Below, piece after piece: positions 1 through 6,699 of a stretch of 64,000 nucleotides of DNA (its first letter is position 1; each line of letters opens with the position of its first letter). The position numbers and the translations under genes were made by a program. Origin of the DNA: Pricia mediterranea. Its GTDB lineage: Bacteria; Bacteroidota; Bacteroidia; Flavobacteriales; Flavobacteriaceae. The notes beneath the pieces were generated by a model. The model saw only the letters and a program-made list of their open reading frames with translations. It ran no database searches and was not told the origin of the DNA. Location: positions 2,788,501-2,852,500 of the forward strand of contig NZ_JAVTTP010000001.1 of the NCBI RefSeq assembly GCF_032248455.1. The letters are read 5' to 3'.

Positions 1-2258
1 TAGAGAGGGTATCCTGTGAATAGTCCTAAAATTAGGGTTTCTGAAAGCAATTCACAACGATAAGGAACATACTTAGGCTTATGGCTTGCCTGTGAATAGT
101 CCTAAAATTAGGGTTTCTGAAAGCAATTCACAACTGGAATCCCGGACGGCCTTGTCCGCTTTTTCCTGTGAATAGTCCTAAAATTAGGGTTTCTGAAAGC
201 AATTCACAACTGCGGGAACTGCTTTGCGGTTATACCCCATCCTGTGAATAGTCCTAAAATTAGGGTTTCTGAAAGCAATTCACAACTTCTTTCTATGAAT
301 TCGATAAAGCCCCATTCCTGTGAATAGTCCTAAAATTAGGGTTTCTGAAAGCAATTCACAACTTCACAGTATTTATTGCACAAGGTTCGCACCTGTGAAT
401 AGTCCTAAAATTAGGGTTTCTGAAAGCAATTCACAACTGTAAAATCTAAAGACATAATTTTAATTTACCTGTGAATAGTCCTAAAATTAGGGTTTCTGAA
501 AGCAATTCACAACCCATTGCCGTCCTTAGCGCACCGACTTAACCTGTGAATAGTCCTAAAATTAGGGTTTCTGAAAGCAATTCACAACGAAAACGGCCAG
601 AGAGAACCGAAAGCGTATCCTGTGAATAGTCCTAAAATTAGGGTTTCTGAAAGCAATTCACAACAGCGAGTACATATGGAACATGGGCGATAGTCCTGTG
701 AATAGTCCTAAAATTAGGGTTTCTGAAAGCAATTCACAACAAAAAAACAAAGAGCGTAAAACAAATGATTCCTGTGAATAGTCCTAAAATTAGGGTTTCT
801 GAAAGCAATTCACAACAGCGGGATTGCCCACCCTCTTAACAGCGTGCCTGTGAATAGTCCTAAAATTAGGGTTTCTGAAAGCAATTCACAACAAAACGCG
901 ATTTGCTCCGAGTTATCCCATTCCTGTGAATAGTCCTAAAATTAGGGTTTCTGAAAGCAATTCACAACTATTCGGGGGAATTTTTCGAGAATGAAAACCC
1001 TGTGAATAGTCCTAAAATTAGGGTTTCTGAAAGCAATTCACAACACTAAACGAAGGCGAGATAATCCTAAACAGCCTGTGAATAGTCCTAAAATTAGGGT
1101 TTCTGAAAGCAATTCACAACTTTTAATCTGGGACAATAACAACCCAAGAACCTGTGAATAGTCCTAAAATTAGGGTTTCTGAAAGCAATTCACAACTATG
1201 TTTGTTGTAGAACCTATAATTCTACACCTGTGAATAGTCCTAAAATTAGGGTTTCTGAAAGCAATTCACAACAGCGAAAGTGATGTGAGGTTACCGTAGA
1301 ATCCTGTGAATAGTCCTAAAATTAGGGTTTCTGAAAGCAATTCACAACCATACCTCTTTGTTGAATAACATGAAAACCCCTGTGAATAGTCCTAAAATTA
1401 GGGTTTCTGAAAGCAATTCACAACCCCAGCATCAAATGCAAGTTCGGCCACTTTCCTGTGAATAGTCCTAAAATTAGGGTTTCTGAAAGCAATTCACAAC
1501 CTCGCTTCATGTCTATGGTAAAAGAAAATCCCTGTGAATAGTCCTAAAATTAGGGTTTCTGAAAGCAATTCACAACACTTGCCGGCGCCTTAATAATTTC
1601 CGGTTTCCTGTGAATAGTCCTAAAATTAGGGTTTCTGAAAGCAATTCACAACCGGTTCGTAGTTGTGTGGTATACCCATCTTCCTGTGAATAGTCCTAAA
1701 ATTAGGGTTTCTGAAAGCAATTCACAACTGATGTCTCCATAACTTTTTGCATTAGGCCCTGTGAATAGTCCTAAAATTAGGGTTTCTGAAAGCAATTCAC
1801 AACTTTATCGCCTCGCGGATGAAGTTCGAGACCCTGTGAATAGTCCTAAAATTAGGGTTTCTGAAAGCAATTCACAACTGCTATCGATGTTTTCCTCTAA
1901 CGCCTTGGCCTGTGAATAGTCCTAAAATTAGGGTTTCTGAAAGCAATTCACAACCTTCGTCCTTAATCTGAATACTCTTCAAAACCTGTGAATAGTCCTA
2001 AAATTAGGGTTTCTGAAAGCAATTCACAACTAATTTCCGAGTTTTAATTTGTTGCTGTTTCCTGTGAATAGTCCTAAAATTAGGGTTTCTGAAAGCAATT
2101 CACAACTATTTGTTAAAGATTGCCATTAAATCGTTTCCTGTGAATAGTCCTAAAATTAGGGTTTCTGAAAGCAATTCACAACATAGTCCCCATAGCTCCG
2201 TGATTCCCTATCCCTGTGAATAGTCCTAAAATTAGGGTTTCTGAAAGCAATTCACAAC
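1..2258 (-). CRISPR. Type II-C-like CRISPR array, right part (30 repeats, 29 spacers)
   Basis: Thirty copies of a 46-bp repeat are spaced with a period of 75-76 bp; the first starts at 13 and the last ends at 2258. Spacers are 30 nt, with four of 29 nt (363-391, 514-542, 1729-1757, 1804-1832). Bases 1-12 are the tail of another spacer, so the array continues left of the window. As far as I can read, all 30 repeats are identical and all spacers differ. Read on the minus strand the repeat begins GTTGTGAATTGC and ends ACAGG. This is the length and 5' end expected of type II-C repeats in Bacteroidota, where crRNA is spacer followed by GTTGTG. No cas9, cas1, cas2 or tracrRNA is in the window; they probably lie to the left. 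Strand is inferred from the repeat orientation. Confidence 0.97.
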
Positions 2259-2466
2259 TGGTTCCACTAAAGATGACCGTAATCGAAGAGTGCCTTCCTC
2301 TCGCTCCCTTTGATCGCTCGTCGGAGGCAGATAAATTAGGATTTCTGAAAGCAATTCATAACTGGTTCCACTAAAGATGACCGCAATCGAAGAGTGCCTT
2401 CCTCTCGCTCCCTTTGATCGCTCGTCGGAGGCAGACAAATTAGGGTTTCTGAAAGCAATTCACAAC
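2259..2466 (-). repeat. Two 104-bp tandem hybrid units at the CRISPR array end
   Basis: Two near-identical 104-bp units (2259-2362 and 2363-2466) follow the last full repeat. Each has a 30-nt spacer-like stretch beginning tggttccact, then about 43 nt of a flank element (gtgccttcctctcgct ... tcggaggcaga), then the last 30 nt of the 46-bp CRISPR repeat. The first 16 nt of the repeat are missing. The repeat part carries two substitutions in the first unit and none in the second; the spacer-like parts differ by one base. The same flank element, 15 nt shorter, follows the degenerate repeat at 4667-4712. The units therefore look like a recombination product between the array's end flank and a repeat, duplicated afterwards. 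Confidence 0.9.
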
Positions 2467-3197
2467 TGAAGAACACGGGGTATTCGGAGATATTGTCAAA
2501 GAACTCGTTGTTGTTCTTCTGCCCCCTTACGAGTTGGTCTTCGAGAACGTCGAAGTCTTCGGTGAAGGAAATGCCGAACTGCTGGGCGAGCGTCCGGGCC
2601 GATGTCAGCATTTCCTTGAAATCAACGTCGAAAGTCTTGGCAAGTGCCTCGTCCCGTATGCGCGCCTAATCGGCCGCCTGATCGGTAAGCCCCGTAATCT
2701 GTTGGGTAAGGCGCAGGGCCTCGACGATCTGCGAATTGTAGTCGAACCATTGTTTTGCGGCGGCACCGATGCCGACCAAGGCGGCGATTGCGACACCGAT
2801 GGGGGTGGCGATAAATGCCAACGCGGCCTTGGTAGCGCCCTTGATACCGTTGAAAGCTTCCTTAACCTGAAGGATATCGCCGTTGCGGTAGCCATCGAGC
2901 ATGGTCTGGAAGCTACCGGTAAAGTCCAATAACGCACGTTCGGAGTCGGAGACCCCGGCGGCGGTCAGCTTTACATCTTCGCGGAAGGTCTTCTGCGCCT
3001 CTCGGGCCTGTTTGTACCCGGTCTCGAGCTTGGCGACCTCTTCATTGTACTCGCGGAATTTGTCGGTACCCTCGATCTGGCGGTTGGCGAGGGTGCGGAA
3101 CTTGGCCAGGTTCTTTCGAAGGTTGGTGATGGCGGAGTCGACCTCTTCGCCGTTTCACGAAAATTTTTAACCGTCTGGTAATCGTTTTATCGGCCAT
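2467..3197 (-). pseudogene. Phage tail tape-measure protein, N-terminal fragment, frameshifted and interrupted
   Basis: A start at 3197 gives a protein beginning MADKTITRRLKIFV; the reading frame is lost near 3150 by a small indel and resumes with GEEVDSAITN. It continues through a charged, coiled-coil-like stretch (YNEEVAKLETGYKQAREAQK) and a hydrophobic Ala/Ile-rich segment (PIGVAIAALVGIGAAA). An in-frame TAG follows at 2668-2670, then the same frame reads on (ARIRDEALAKTF... to ISEYPVFFS) until it meets the CRISPR half-repeat at 2466. The N-terminal opening, the coiled coil and the hydrophobic segment are typical of tail tape-measure proteins of Bacteroidota phages. These are normally many hundreds of residues long, so most of the gene is missing. 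Three independent lesions (frameshift, stop, truncation) mean it is dead. Confidence 0.75.
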
Positions 3198-3255
3198 GTC
3201 GCCTTTTGAATTTTATGCAAAATGGCGGTTTCAAGACCGATAAAAAAGGACAGCA

Positions 3256-3285
3256 AAAAGCCCGTTAGAAAACTGACGGGCTTTT
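3256..3285. terminator. Bidirectional hairpin terminator after the lipoprotein gene
   Basis: AAAAGCCCGT (3256-3265) pairs perfectly with ACGGGCTTTT (3276-3285) around a 10-nt loop, with A and T tracts on both sides. It lies just downstream of the minus-strand lipoprotein gene and upstream of the tape-measure fragment. The lipoprotein gene is therefore a separate transcription unit inside the phage segment. Confidence 0.8.
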
Positions 3286-3306
3286 ATGTGTTTCGACGAG
3301 ATTCTA

Positions 3307-4266
3307 TCAATTACAGGTGAATAGGAAATTAATAGATTCGGATAGGGCCTCAATAGGAAGATTTTCAGGAGTAAATGTCTGGGATTCGAGAAGACGCTCT
3401 TCGTACTGGTTCTGTTCGTTGTACCAATTGGTCCACGTTCTAACGTGAATACTGTCCATTTTTCTGGTGTAAGGCACGGTATGATATCCGCGTAGGGTCT
3501 TGTCGGTTGATTCACTTTCTTTACGGTATATACGAACCGGATCAGGGCTCCCGTTTCTGAACATATCGACGGTCAAGATCTCTACGCAATCAGCATCTCC
3601 ATGTGCGCCCCTGCTGATGACGACGTTGAGCTGTCCGATTTGATCGGTCTCAAGGGAGCTCAGGGCTTCGCCTTCTACCGTTACTTTTGGAGGATTATAG
3701 CAAAGAGCGGTACCGGTAATACTTTGTGGATCGTTTTTCTTTATTGTGATATCAATGGGCAAAATGGTGTCAGCGAATCCTAAAAAATCTATGTCTGTTT
3801 CCTTCGGAAGGGCATAAAGCGTATCGTTGCCCGACATCAAGTAGCTGTCGGTAAGAACGTAATTGCCCTCGGGGAGGGAGTCCGGTTCGGACTGCCACAT
3901 ACCGTTAACTTGCGATACGGGGCTTTCTTTCTTCACATTCTCACCGTACGGACCGGTTAGAATGAAAGCAACGGATTTGGGGTCTGATTTCTTACACGTC
4001 GGGACTTTGGAAGTTCCGTCGGGAATCTGGCCCCGGTAACTGAAGGTGCCGTATTCGATTTCGGCGGGGGTTTCGATGACCGTTGTATCGGGTTGTGACA
4101 CCGCGGTGGTATCCGATGGGGTTTCGGGCTGGAGGGTGTCGACCTGGGGGCGGGGGTCAAGGTCGCCGTGGGAAATTGATTCTTGGAACTCCATAGGGTC
4201 GGCCGAGCATGCGGCGATGATTGCGATTACGACCAATGCGATGAGATAAATTGCCTGTTTTTTCAC
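3307..4266 (-). CDS. Lipoprotein of unknown function (319 aa) inside the phage segment
   Basis: The start is a GTG (4264-4266) followed by MKKQAIYLIALVVIAIIAAC, a lipoprotein signal peptide with a lipobox (IIAAC, Cys at about residue 20). A low-complexity Thr/Pro/Asp-rich linker follows (about residues 40-70, with repeated DTT and ETP), then a domain with paired cysteines (CKKS, CYNP, CVEI and a C-terminal FTCN). I do not recognise a family. The gene is intact while the tape-measure gene next to it is broken, and it has its own terminator. Lipoproteins carried by phages can act in superinfection exclusion, and the TP-J34 lipoprotein is known to act on the phage tape-measure protein. That role is only a suggestion here. 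It could also be ordinary host cargo. Confidence 0.7.
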   Translation of the reverse strand: MKKQAIYLIALVVIAIIAACSADPMEFQESISHGDLDPRPQVDTLQPETPSDTTAVSQPDTTVIETPAEIEYGTFSYRGQIPDGTSKVPTCKKSDPKSVAFILTGPYGENVKKESPVSQVNGMWQSEPDSLPEGNYVLTDSYLMSGNDTLYALPKETDIDFLGFADTILPIDITIKKNDPQSITGTALCYNPPKVTVEGEALSSLETDQIGQLNVVISRGAHGDADCVEILTVDMFRNGSPDPVRIYRKESESTDKTLRGYHTVPYTRKMDSIHVRTWTNWYNEQNQYEERLLESQTFTPENLPIEALSESINFLFTCN

Positions 4267-4305
4267 AATTGTGCGTTTTTAGTTAGAGATTTTTTTAAGG
4301 TCTTT

Positions 4306-4512
4306 TCATAGCAGCTTTTCAAGTTTATCGGCGGCGCTCTTGATGTAGGTGACAAGGTCGTCATGGTTTTGCTTCGTGAATTGATGGGCTTTGGCACTTT
4401 CGCTGTTCTTTTTCCAAAAAGTGGGAAGAGTCACGTTCATGTCCTTGGCCGCAACTTCGGATTTCATGCCGAAGGTGTCCGTGATACTGTTGATTTTCGC
4501 TTTATTGTTCAT
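4306..4512 (-). CDS. Small helical protein of unknown function (68 aa)
   Basis: The protein is 68 residues, Lys-rich and helical. The stretch SEVAAKDMNVTLPTFWKK resembles a helix-turn-helix (a short helix, a turn, then a recognition-like helix), followed by FTKQNHDDLVTYIK. This would fit a small phage regulator, but I cannot assign a family. Its ATG overlaps the end of the upstream cut-off gene by 11 bases, so the two were translated from one message. It precedes the lipoprotein gene by about 40 nt. Confidence 0.5.
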   Translation of the reverse strand: MNNKAKINSITDTFGMKSEVAAKDMNVTLPTFWKKNSESAKAHQFTKQNHDDLVTYIKSAADKLEKLL

Positions 4513-4666
4513 CGGATCGGTTTAAATCTTCCCAAATCAAGTATTCCCCGAACCATTCCCAAGCTTTATCCAGCAGTACCCGAGATTCCAGCCCATGGTG
4601 CGACGAGTTGTCGGTATACGCGAGGGTGTATGTTTCTCCGAAATATTCGCGCTGAATCGATTTTTG
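4502..4666 (-). pseudogene. C-terminal fragment of an unidentified gene, cut by the CRISPR repeat
   Basis: The frame is open from the CRISPR repeat boundary at 4666 to a TAA at 4502-4504 and encodes about 54 residues (SIQREYFGETYTLAYTDN ... WEWFGEYLIWEDLNRSDEQ). Its stop overlaps the start of the 68-codon gene, the usual sign of translational coupling, so this is a real coding end rather than a chance frame. The 5' part of the gene is absent: the sequence upstream is the degenerate CRISPR repeat. I do not recognise the family. Confidence 0.55.
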
Positions 4667-4712
4667 CCTGTGAAAAGTCCTAAAATCAAGGTTTCTGAAA
4701 GCAATTCACAAC
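4667..4712 (-). CRISPR. Degenerate CRISPR repeat, outermost copy
   Basis: This is a 46-nt copy of the array repeat with three substitutions (t to a at position 9, t to c and g to a near the centre). It is followed by exactly 30 nt of spacer-like sequence (4713-4742) and then the array flank element. Divergent repeats usually mark the old end of an array, so this was probably the last repeat before the 2.2-kb segment separated it from the others. Confidence 0.9.
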
Positions 4713-4860
4713 GCCACATCTTGGAACGGGCATCATCGTATGGTGCCTTCCTCTCGCTCTTCGGAGGCAGACCAATTGAAGGATTACTATTTAAACCCTA
4801 AAAAAACCGCCAAAACTTCCGAGGGGGCCAGTGGCCGTTCCTCCAACGGGGAAGCTTTAG
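4713..4860. repeat. Terminal spacer and array-end flank element
   Basis: A 30-nt spacer-like stretch (4713-4742) is followed by gtgccttcctctcgct and tcggaggcagacc, which can fold as a hairpin (TGCCTTCC against GGAGGCA). The same element, with 15 extra nt, appears twice at 2290-2435. After it comes caattgaaggatt, which resembles the repeat's aaattagggttt and could be the microhomology that created the hybrid units. I see no gene between 4713 and about 5030. Confidence 0.65.
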
Positions 4861-5029
4861 CGGTGTCTGAAGATAAAAGTAATAAATAACTAATCCAAAA
4901 AAGAAAACCGAACCGAAAAAAACAGTGGGTTCGAATAGCTTGCCTTCAGGCGGAAGGGTTTCCTCGATTCAGAAAGCAAAGCGACTAAAGTTAAATCGAA
5001 GAGAAGCGCAAGAATGATTTGAATTGAAA

Positions 5030-5162
5030 TCAAAAAACTGCCATGGCACCCTCACCATGATCCACTTTGGTGAATACATGAAAGCCCTTTGCTTTAAGAA
5101 GGCGCTCGACCCGATCCATGGTTTTTTCGGGAGAATATTGGCTGATAACCCTTGTTTTTCAT
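5030..5162 (-). pseudogene. DUF302 family fragment
   Basis: On the minus strand, MKNKG (start 5162) is followed, after a one-base frameshift in the aaggg run, by ISQYSPEKTMDRVERLLKAK and GFHVFTKVDHGEGA, then a stop at 5030-5032. The pattern Ser-Pro-Glu-x-Thr-(x)2-Arg-(x)12-GF/V-x-VF-x-(K/R)-(I/V)-D/N-H is the N-terminal signature of DUF302 proteins, which are normally about 130 residues. Only about 40 remain, so this is a truncated and frameshifted remnant. Confidence 0.6.
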
Positions 5163-5315
5163 TGAGCTATTGTTTTCGGAATATTGTCGATTTTGACAGG
5201 AGCAAAGTACTATTGCACCGTCGCATTCCGCCTCTTGTCAATGAAGGATTTTGAAACTTTTTTTGCCATGAAAATCGTATATCCGATGTACGTTTTTCAT
5301 AGGTAAAATAAAAAA

Positions 5316-5798
5316 TTATGCCCGAGGCTCGCTCTCCACTTTATTCTCCTGTAACTTCAGGGATGCCGAGTTCATACAATAGCGGAGTCCACTAGGTTCT
5401 GGACCGTCCGGAAAAACGTGGCCCAAATGGGCATCGCAAGTATTGCAGAGGGCCTCGACCCGAACCATTCCGAAAGAGGTATCTTTTTCGTACTTGACCG
5501 CATTTTCCTTAACAGGTTGGTGGAAACTGGGCCACCCGGTGCCGGATTCGAATTTGATGGTGGAGTCGAACAAAGGGGTGCCGCAACAGACACAGTTGTA
5601 CCTTCCGGCCTCGTGCGCCTCACAGTAGGCTCCCGAATGGGCGGGTTCCGTACCCTTTTTCCGGGTAATTTGGAACTGTTCGGGCGTTAAGACCTCCCGC
5701 CATTCCGCCTCAGACTTTTCGACCCTGCGGTCGGGTTCTGGATTTCCTTTGGTGCTGAATTTTATAATGTCTTTCCAAGTAAGCATAATATTGTCCAT
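5316..5798 (-). CDS. msrB: Peptide-methionine (R)-S-oxide reductase MsrB
   Basis: MsrB reduces methionine-R-sulfoxide in proteins. The 160-aa protein has the full SelR fold. Two zinc-binding pairs are visible (NCVCCG and CNTCDAH), as are the GTGWPSF and GHVFPDGP motifs. The catalytic cysteine is in [11 protein letters not shown] near the C-terminus; Met replaces the usual Ile after Cys. The length is normal for a single-domain, cytosolic MsrB. It stands alone, divergent from the endonuclease gene. The free-methionine reductase at 14.6 kb covers the other R-sulfoxide substrate. Confidence 0.96.
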
Positions 5799-5825
5799 TT
5801 TAGTGGTGTCAAGATAGAAAATTAG

Positions 5826-5858
5826 TTGCTTATCCTATCAGATCTAATCTTATATTTA
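5826..5858 (+). promoter_or_regulatory. Bacteroidota-type promoter of the endonuclease gene
   Basis: TTG (5826-5828), 22 nt, then TATATTTA (5851-5858) matches the flavobacterial consensus TTG-N17-23-TAnnTTTG with one mismatch. The predicted transcript starts at about 5864-5866. That excludes the ATG at 5860 and supports a start at 5890 or 5899. Confidence 0.6.
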
Positions 5859-5898
5859 CGTGAAAATTTATGCTCATGTTTGCTACTCGATGCCAATT

Positions 5899-6699
5899 AT
5901 GAGGCGGAAAACCATATACTCTATTTTAATCGCCCTCTGTATCGTTGGCTTTTGGCTGTTCGAAAATTTTTATACACAGGATACCTACTCCGATCCGGAG
6001 GGCGGGGGACTCAAAACGGAAATTCCCCCTACTTGGATGCCCAAATCCACCACTGGTGCCGTAGTCGAACATAGTTATTACACCCTTTCCTATAATGAAC
6101 CCTACGAGCAGGCGGAATGGGTAGCATACCTGCTCAAGAAAAGCCATTTGACCCAAGACGACCGTGAGCGTCCCTTTTTTATCGAAGACCCGAAGGTCAA
6201 GACCAAGTCGGCGGACTGGCGGAACTACAAGGGGTCGGGCTATGACAGGGGCCATCTTTGCCCCGCTGGCGACCGCCGCTTTTCGGAACAGGCGTACAAC
6301 GAGACTTTTTATACCAGTAATATAAGTCCCCAAGACCGTGATTTCAACGCGGGCGTTTGGAACCGGCTCGAACTGCAAATACGCGCTTGGGCCCGACGCT
6401 ACGGCGAGCTCTTTATCGTCACGGGGGGAGTACTGGAGCCCGGCCTGAAAGAAATCGGGGAAGAGGGGGTCGATGTGCCCAAGTTTTACTACAAGGTCAT
6501 CGCCCGGGGAAATCCCGACGAGCCGGAGGTATTGGCCTTTCTTTTACCGGGAAGGGAAAGTTCCCGGCCGCTAAGCCATTTTATGGTGACCGTCGATGAA
6601 GTCGAAAAACGCACGGAGATCGACTTTTTCAAAGCGCTTACCGATGATGTCGAAACGGATCTGGAGCGAAACATAAGGGCCGACGCCTGGAAGTTTTAG
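5899..6699 (+). CDS. DNA/RNA non-specific endonuclease (NUC1 family), membrane-anchored or secreted
   Basis: This is a beta-beta-alpha metal nuclease of the Serratia NucA / mitochondrial EndoG family. The catalytic motif DRGH (GYDRGHLCPAGDRR) lies at about residues 120-135, followed by NETFYTSNISPQ, which carries the Asn that binds Mg2+. From the ATG at 5899 the protein is 266 aa and begins MRRKTIYSILIALCIVGFWL, a signal peptide or signal anchor, so it acts outside the cytoplasm, probably in nucleic-acid scavenging or defence. ATGs at 5860 and 5890 are in frame, but the promoter position argues against the first. No immunity protein gene is visible next to it. Confidence 0.93.
   Translation: MRRKTIYSILIALCIVGFWLFENFYTQDTYSDPEGGGLKTEIPPTWMPKSTTGAVVEHSYYTLSYNEPYEQAEWVAYLLKKSHLTQDDRERPFFIEDPKVKTKSADWRNYKGSGYDRGHLCPAGDRRFSEQAYNETFYTSNISPQDRDFNAGVWNRLELQIRAWARRYGELFIVTGGVLEPGLKEIGEEGVDVPKFYYKVIARGNPDEPEVLAFLLPGRESSRPLSHFMVTVDEVEKRTEIDFFKALTDDVETDLERNIRADAWKF

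Follow-up and report, generated by a model that had tools for sequence, protein, structure and literature searches.

The window analysed, a stretch of 64,000 nucleotides of Pricia mediterranea DNA (bases 2,788,501–2,852,500 of a 4.27-Mb contig, in a genome of 3 contigs), has near its start a CRISPR array whose cas genes lie close by, upstream of the window. These are a cas9 open reading frame (ORF) of 1,511 amino acids (TIGR01865), a cas1 of type II (TIGR03639) and cas2 (TIGR01573), which with a tracrRNA anti-repeat make the locus type II-C. No fourth cas gene adjoins the array, and the three upstream ORFs that were scanned are not cas genes. The other ORF of at least 90 amino acids on the stretch from cas2 to the array, which lay outside that scan, overlaps cas2 in a different frame. 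The anti-repeat stands near cas9, beside its likely start as judged by eye, and matches at 18 of 20 nt. Its place on the opposite strand gives the minus strand as the one from which the array is read. In F. columnare, transcription of the II-C array runs towards the leader (passages of PMC8092290), and this pattern, together with the degenerate repeats at the right of the Pricia array, puts the presumed leader on the cas2 side, with the old end at the right. The two loci are alike in having cas9, cas1 and cas2 with an array whose crRNA sense points towards the presumed leader (same passages), and the 46-nt repeats and 30-nt spacers of the Pricia array are those of the relatives' II-C arrays examined. 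Unlike the F. columnare array, that of Pricia has hybrid repeats and a 2.2-kb phage insert at its distal end.

The locus forms an island of about 13 kb between a protease-like gene (identified by eye) and msrB (SelR). The corresponding site in six relatives holds about 1–3.5 kb without a match to the CRISPR locus. Beside the locus (L012, 8612–9987) there are a nucleotidyltransferase with a substrate-binding partner, which is toxin-antitoxin-like, and a pRiA4 ORF3-like gene.

Table 1. Features of the array and of the block within it (positions in the window)
Feature	Position	Strand	Remarks
CRISPR array	13–2258	−	30 exact 46-nt repeats and 29 spacers of 29–30 nt; crRNA sense is the minus strand
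First 104-bp unit	2259–2362		31-mer 2259–2289; element 2290–2332; partial repeat 2333–2362 (3′ 30 nt, 2 mismatches)
Second 104-bp unit (96%)	2363–2466		31-mer; element 2394–2436; partial repeat 2437–2466, matching the consensus
Phage-derived block in one spacer position	2467–4666	−	2,200 nt
Phage tape-measure gene, 5′ fragment	2467–3197	−	Cut at repeat; TMP_2, phrog_24, phrog_37298
Terminator-like inverted repeat	3258–3286		Between lipoprotein and tape-measure genes; by eye
Lipoprotein ORF	3307–4266	−	Open, 319 aa; lipobox-like AAC
68-aa phage protein	4306–4512	−	41–43% to Riemerella phage proteins; phrog_32215
3′ end of an ORF	4502–4666	−	54 codons and stop; 5′ side cut by repeat
Leader-distal repeat	4667–4712	−	3 mismatches
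Last spacer	4713–4742		
Small element, third copy	4743–4774		Shortened; at array end

Past the last exact repeat the order is two 104-bp units, the block, the 3-mismatch repeat, one more spacer and the element in shortened form. The two units are a tandem duplication, each made up of a 31-nt spacer-like sequence, a 43-nt element and the 3′ 30 nt of the repeat. The small element, of ~40 nt, reads CCTCTCGCTC...CGCTCGTCGG and is present in three copies at this end of the array; its 13-nt core occurs at 3 places in the whole genome, all of them at the array's old end. It forms no significant hairpin (153 of 200 shuffles fold equally well), and sequences similar to it are found in three other genomes (G001, G003 and G100, including L043 125–164, L176 and L177). 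Since the left neighbour of the block is a rearranged partial repeat, this end of the array is prone to other rearrangements as well.

The preliminary description placed a 2.2-kb block in a single spacer position, and this is borne out: the block lies between repeat sequences. Its statement that both ends coincide with repeat boundaries to the base holds insofar as the ends are flush, but of the left ‘repeat’ only the 3′ 30 nt are there, and the right one carries 3 mismatches. It was also right that genes are cut at both ends on the same strand, both cut frames being on the minus strand with the lipoprotein likewise, and that the 30-nt ends of the block are unlike each other. At the left junction the tape-measure homology with four phage or prophage relatives (the prophage of the same-genus genome G002, L056, L057 and L072) extends as far as the base that adjoins the repeat. 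Three of the 4 share this base, and past it the relatives diverge from the repeat, which fixes the left junction with an uncertainty of about one base. At the right, a 54-codon open frame, in whose first 41 codons there is no ATG, GTG or TTG, runs out of the repeat that starts at 4667. Both junctions are at spacer/repeat edges, the position of the right one being that of the repeat edge alone. In the right-most 400 nt, beyond the lipoprotein, the only matches are that of the 68-aa protein and a weak PHROG match of the cut ORF (E 0.015, function unknown), and no relative covers the right end, so that phage identity up to position 4666 is presumed.

The comparison at the left junction bears on one route by which phage DNA could come to lie between two repeats. 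A solitary repeat carried by a phage could recombine with host repeats and leave phage DNA between two of them, a route envisaged in passages of PMC8616872, where the proposal for viral solitary repeat units likewise predicts virus DNA between host repeats. Such a route would need a repeat inside the tape-measure gene, and unlike the proposed units the four tape-measure relatives have none at the corresponding site; it is disfavoured as extremely unlikely. Insertions offer another comparison. Insertion sequences and other elements can interrupt CRISPR arrays, and they too put kilobase DNA between repeats, whereas the Pricia block is a piece cut out of phage DNA and flush at its ends. None of the block ORFs tested against Pfam and PHROG matched a transposase or integrase. 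Block DNA had no match among phage records, and of plasmids only 3 records matched window positions 1–4800, by short or array-region matches, with just 50 nt at 84% inside the block.

That the block holds part of a tape-measure gene, as had been claimed from the letters, is confirmed by several PHROG tail families and by prophage and phage relatives; the Pfam TMP_2 match has an E value of 3e-4, below the curated cut-off. Over block bases 33–786 the fragment matches the G002 prophage at 77%, and at the protein level two pieces of it match at 82.5% and 72.7%. The fragment is broken, with one frameshift, one stop and, relative to G002, a 12-nt deletion. Third codon positions account for 110 of the 174 substitutions between the two genes (110/243, against 40/244 and 24/243 at the other two positions), which argues that the gene was still working in a phage when most of the divergence took place, and that decay came later. 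A first scan of genome contigs with a tape-measure query gave no match. The query used for the alignment found two loci in genome contigs and 108 relatives in viral contigs, 80 of which were kept. Beside the tape-measure gene in those relatives there is no lipoprotein, 68-aa protein or right-end ORF like that of the block at E <0.3; the matches at that level in the neighbourhood comparison came from this genome and RAP44 only.

The lipoprotein, whose gene stands directly upstream of the tape-measure gene, has no Pfam or PHROG match and a predicted structure with a mean pLDDT of 36. Its relatives include a protein encoded on the G002 prophage contig (36%) and a lipoprotein of the G001 chromosome (30%), and its family is present in 7 of 397 sampled genomes of the Flavobacteriaceae. 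The G002 relative is ~23 kb away in the same contig, which has a terminase and other phage-like ORFs (by eye). Five neighbourhoods of the lipoprotein in four other genomes lacked both the 68-aa protein and the right-end ORF; scans of viral contigs with the 68-aa protein and the lipoprotein found none, the 68-aa protein is confined to this one genome of the 397, and the right-end ORF has no homologue among the loci and relatives compared. The block had been described as a capture of live phage genes, including an intact lipoprotein gene. The lipoprotein frame is open as stated, but with the tape-measure fragment broken ‘live’ is too strong a word. In Streptococcus phage TP-J34 a lipoprotein acts on the tape-measure protein and so blocks phages, and by likeness to it a possible exclusion role for the lipoprotein of the block is worth testing.

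Comparable inserts were sought in other arrays of the family. A 15-nt II-C repeat end is held by 43 of 397 family genomes, this one included. The survey took in 43 loci, from 36 of the 42 other genomes with this repeat end and from 4 further genomes (G004, G158, G238, G245, G266, G288 and genomes with short matches only were left out); 36 loci were scored as arrays and seven had too few repeats. Four of the scored arrays (L171, L173, L174 and L194) were found through another repeat, with a 77-nt period. Inserts of at least 300 nt between repeats, a cut-off chosen after the gaps had been seen, are present in 3 of these 36 arrays of relatives. One of the three, in G067 (another genus of the same family), is a second comparable case. 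Its insert of about 1.4 kb comes from a phage tape-measure gene (PhageMin_Tail; phrog_25337), of which it is the 5′ part, 49% to that of Flavobacterium phage laban6-1 with homology up to and including the final complete codon ahead of the junction. Like the Pricia fragment it has the crRNA strand as its coding strand, and its frame stays open for 382 codons to the junction. One of its junctions is flush with a repeat start and the other is 21 nt inside a repeat. The remaining two arrays hold inserts that do not look phage-like by eye: 696 and 876 nt between repeats in G026, and 4,880 nt in one array slot in G280 (L204 5868–10747, oriented as in the window). The G280 insert has serine-hydrolase-like and AraC-like ORFs, again by eye, and has GTTGGCAACAA and GTTAGCAACAA at its two boundaries, where the first copy forms the end of a normal 30-nt spacer.

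The same loci show irregularities of a smaller kind. Hybrid CRISPR repeats occur in three genera, at the distal end of L164 (G024), in L183 (G375) and in L172 (G067; 4210–6491). Several repeats of an array carry an insert (57 nt, 53 nt and about 97 nt) at one site, GTTGTGAATTGC^TTT in the crRNA sense; they adjoin different spacers and are intermixed with normal repeats. A small mobile element with CRISPR repeats as its target is a possible explanation of the insert. In L188 (G336), L190 (G147) and L211 (G142), GCTAAA- or GTTAAA-type letters precede repeat ends as they do in the hybrid repeats, with few or no normal repeats alongside. In L210 (G321) two lone II-C repeats are separated by 2.66 kb, and a run of N follows each of them.

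The Pricia block might also be a product of assembly. Repeats are classic misjoin points, and the assemblies are of 3 contigs for Pricia and 250 for G067. Even so, a misjoin would still require phage DNA bordering real CRISPR repeats, the right repeat differs from the 30 exact ones by its 3 mismatches, and the block has no second copy elsewhere in the genome. An artefact is, on these counts, very unlikely. The finding of the block is real, and with the G067 insert it is better supported than a single oddity would be. The G067 case supports a recurrent process and is silent on which process; that both inserts are of tape-measure genes may be coincidence, since such genes are long.

The best single account, held tentatively and falling somewhat short of probable, is that a captured piece of phage or prophage replaced one repeat between two former spacers through spacer–phage recombination. 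Spacers identical to phage sites would have recombined with the phage or with a newly integrated copy of it, either by double crossover through two spacers whose targets are ~2.2 kb apart on the phage, or by integration through one spacer with the remainder then lost through the other. The product would be repeat, former spacer, phage DNA, former spacer, repeat. Upstream of the left 30-mer (2467–2496) on the crRNA strand there is no repeat, hence no repeat-borne promoter, and downstream of the right 30-mer (4637–4666) no repeat either, so that neither would give a normal guide. As neither former spacer would keep the parts needed for a guide, the loss of both could explain how the cell survived with the block, which would have decayed after its capture. 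The block lies leader-distally, among the oldest spacers of the array, which can have been there before the event; the degenerate repeats fit this position. A stretch of 30 nt of homology is short for RecA. In staphylococci, recombination of this sort reportedly results in transduction of the CRISPR locus; here, by contrast, it would have left a fixed genomic trace, a phage segment inside a Flavobacteriaceae II-C array. The likeness is that spacer–target identity joins array and phage DNA (Varble et al. 2019 and Watson et al. 2018, as cited in a passage of PMC8616872), recombination between spacers and targets having been reported (same passage). For G067 an illegitimate step would be needed in addition, since its second junction is inside a repeat and not at a spacer edge.

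The double crossover through two spacers that was first proposed fits the anatomy of the block, but no phage with both ends and no array with both spacers was found. Neither of the 30-mers is present in the fetched loci at up to 7 mismatches, and phage records and viral-contig relatives contain no phage carrying either. Spacers of the array gave no convincing protospacer in phages, loci and 149 genomes, and 256 spacers of relatives gave no match at up to 6 mismatches to the block or to two stretches of the G002 contig. Of the 397 family genomes sampled, the other 396 lack the repeat's 25-nt 3′ part even when 1 mismatch is allowed. The PAM of the F. columnare II-C system is NNNNNTAAA (passages of PMC8092290). 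The flank of the right 30-mer inside the block, the only readable one, does not fit it, and the Cas9 of Pricia may use another.

The flush ends could also be the work of the adaptation machinery; that a normal Cas1-Cas2 complex is unable to insert 2.2 kb is an assertion of the preliminary description. Cas1-Cas2, or two half-site reactions, would have joined a 2.2-kb phage fragment to repeat ends, with duplication of the repeat. Flush ends on both sides would follow by construction and no earlier spacer would be required; cas1 and cas2 are present, and one flush end with one that is not, as in G067, is what integrase joining and repair would be expected to give. Adaptation works at the leader end, however, and by the inferred polarity the block is leader-distal, 29 normal spacers lying between it and the presumed leader. 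Being so far from the presumed leader, it would have to be very old or ectopic, later burial being possible. The flanking repeats should moreover be copies of each other, whereas the left one is a partial hybrid and the right one a full repeat with 3 mismatches (later change could hide their identity), and none of the papers searched, with passages of PMC4574026 among them, was found to show integration of kilobase DNA. Aberrant adaptation is for these reasons considered unlikely.

Illegitimate repair, in which a piece of phage or prophage was joined, in the course of replication or following a Cas9 cut, into an array that was broken, its ends coming to lie at repeat edges by chance or by trimming, is possible without being the expected answer. 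The rearranged array end, with its 104-bp tandem duplication, partial repeats and three small-element copies, is what such repair might leave. The non-phage-looking inserts of G280 and G026 also accord with it, as does the G067 junction inside a repeat. Against it, flush ends on both sides are judged unlikely by chance, and a flush end recurs in G067.

No description of a phage insert flush within a CRISPR array was found in the titles and abstract openings surveyed. The Pricia insert and that in another genus suggest that long continuous pieces of a phage genome may at times be taken up into such arrays. A wider reading, on balance doubtful, is that Flavobacteriaceae II-C arrays repeatedly capture kilobase phage segments in their spacer slots, whether by spacer–target recombination or by over-long integration, and hold tail genes and, in the Pricia case, an open phage lipoprotein frame that may be protective to the host. 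If this reading is true, the array would be a landing site for phage genes besides being a memory. If the finding is confirmed, nature would have left a trace of the entry of phage DNA into a CRISPR array at the edges of spacers, and another genus would supply a second case; public genomes could then be used to test how often and by what rules arrays and phages recombine, and immune memory would be seen to be able to become a site of phage gene capture.
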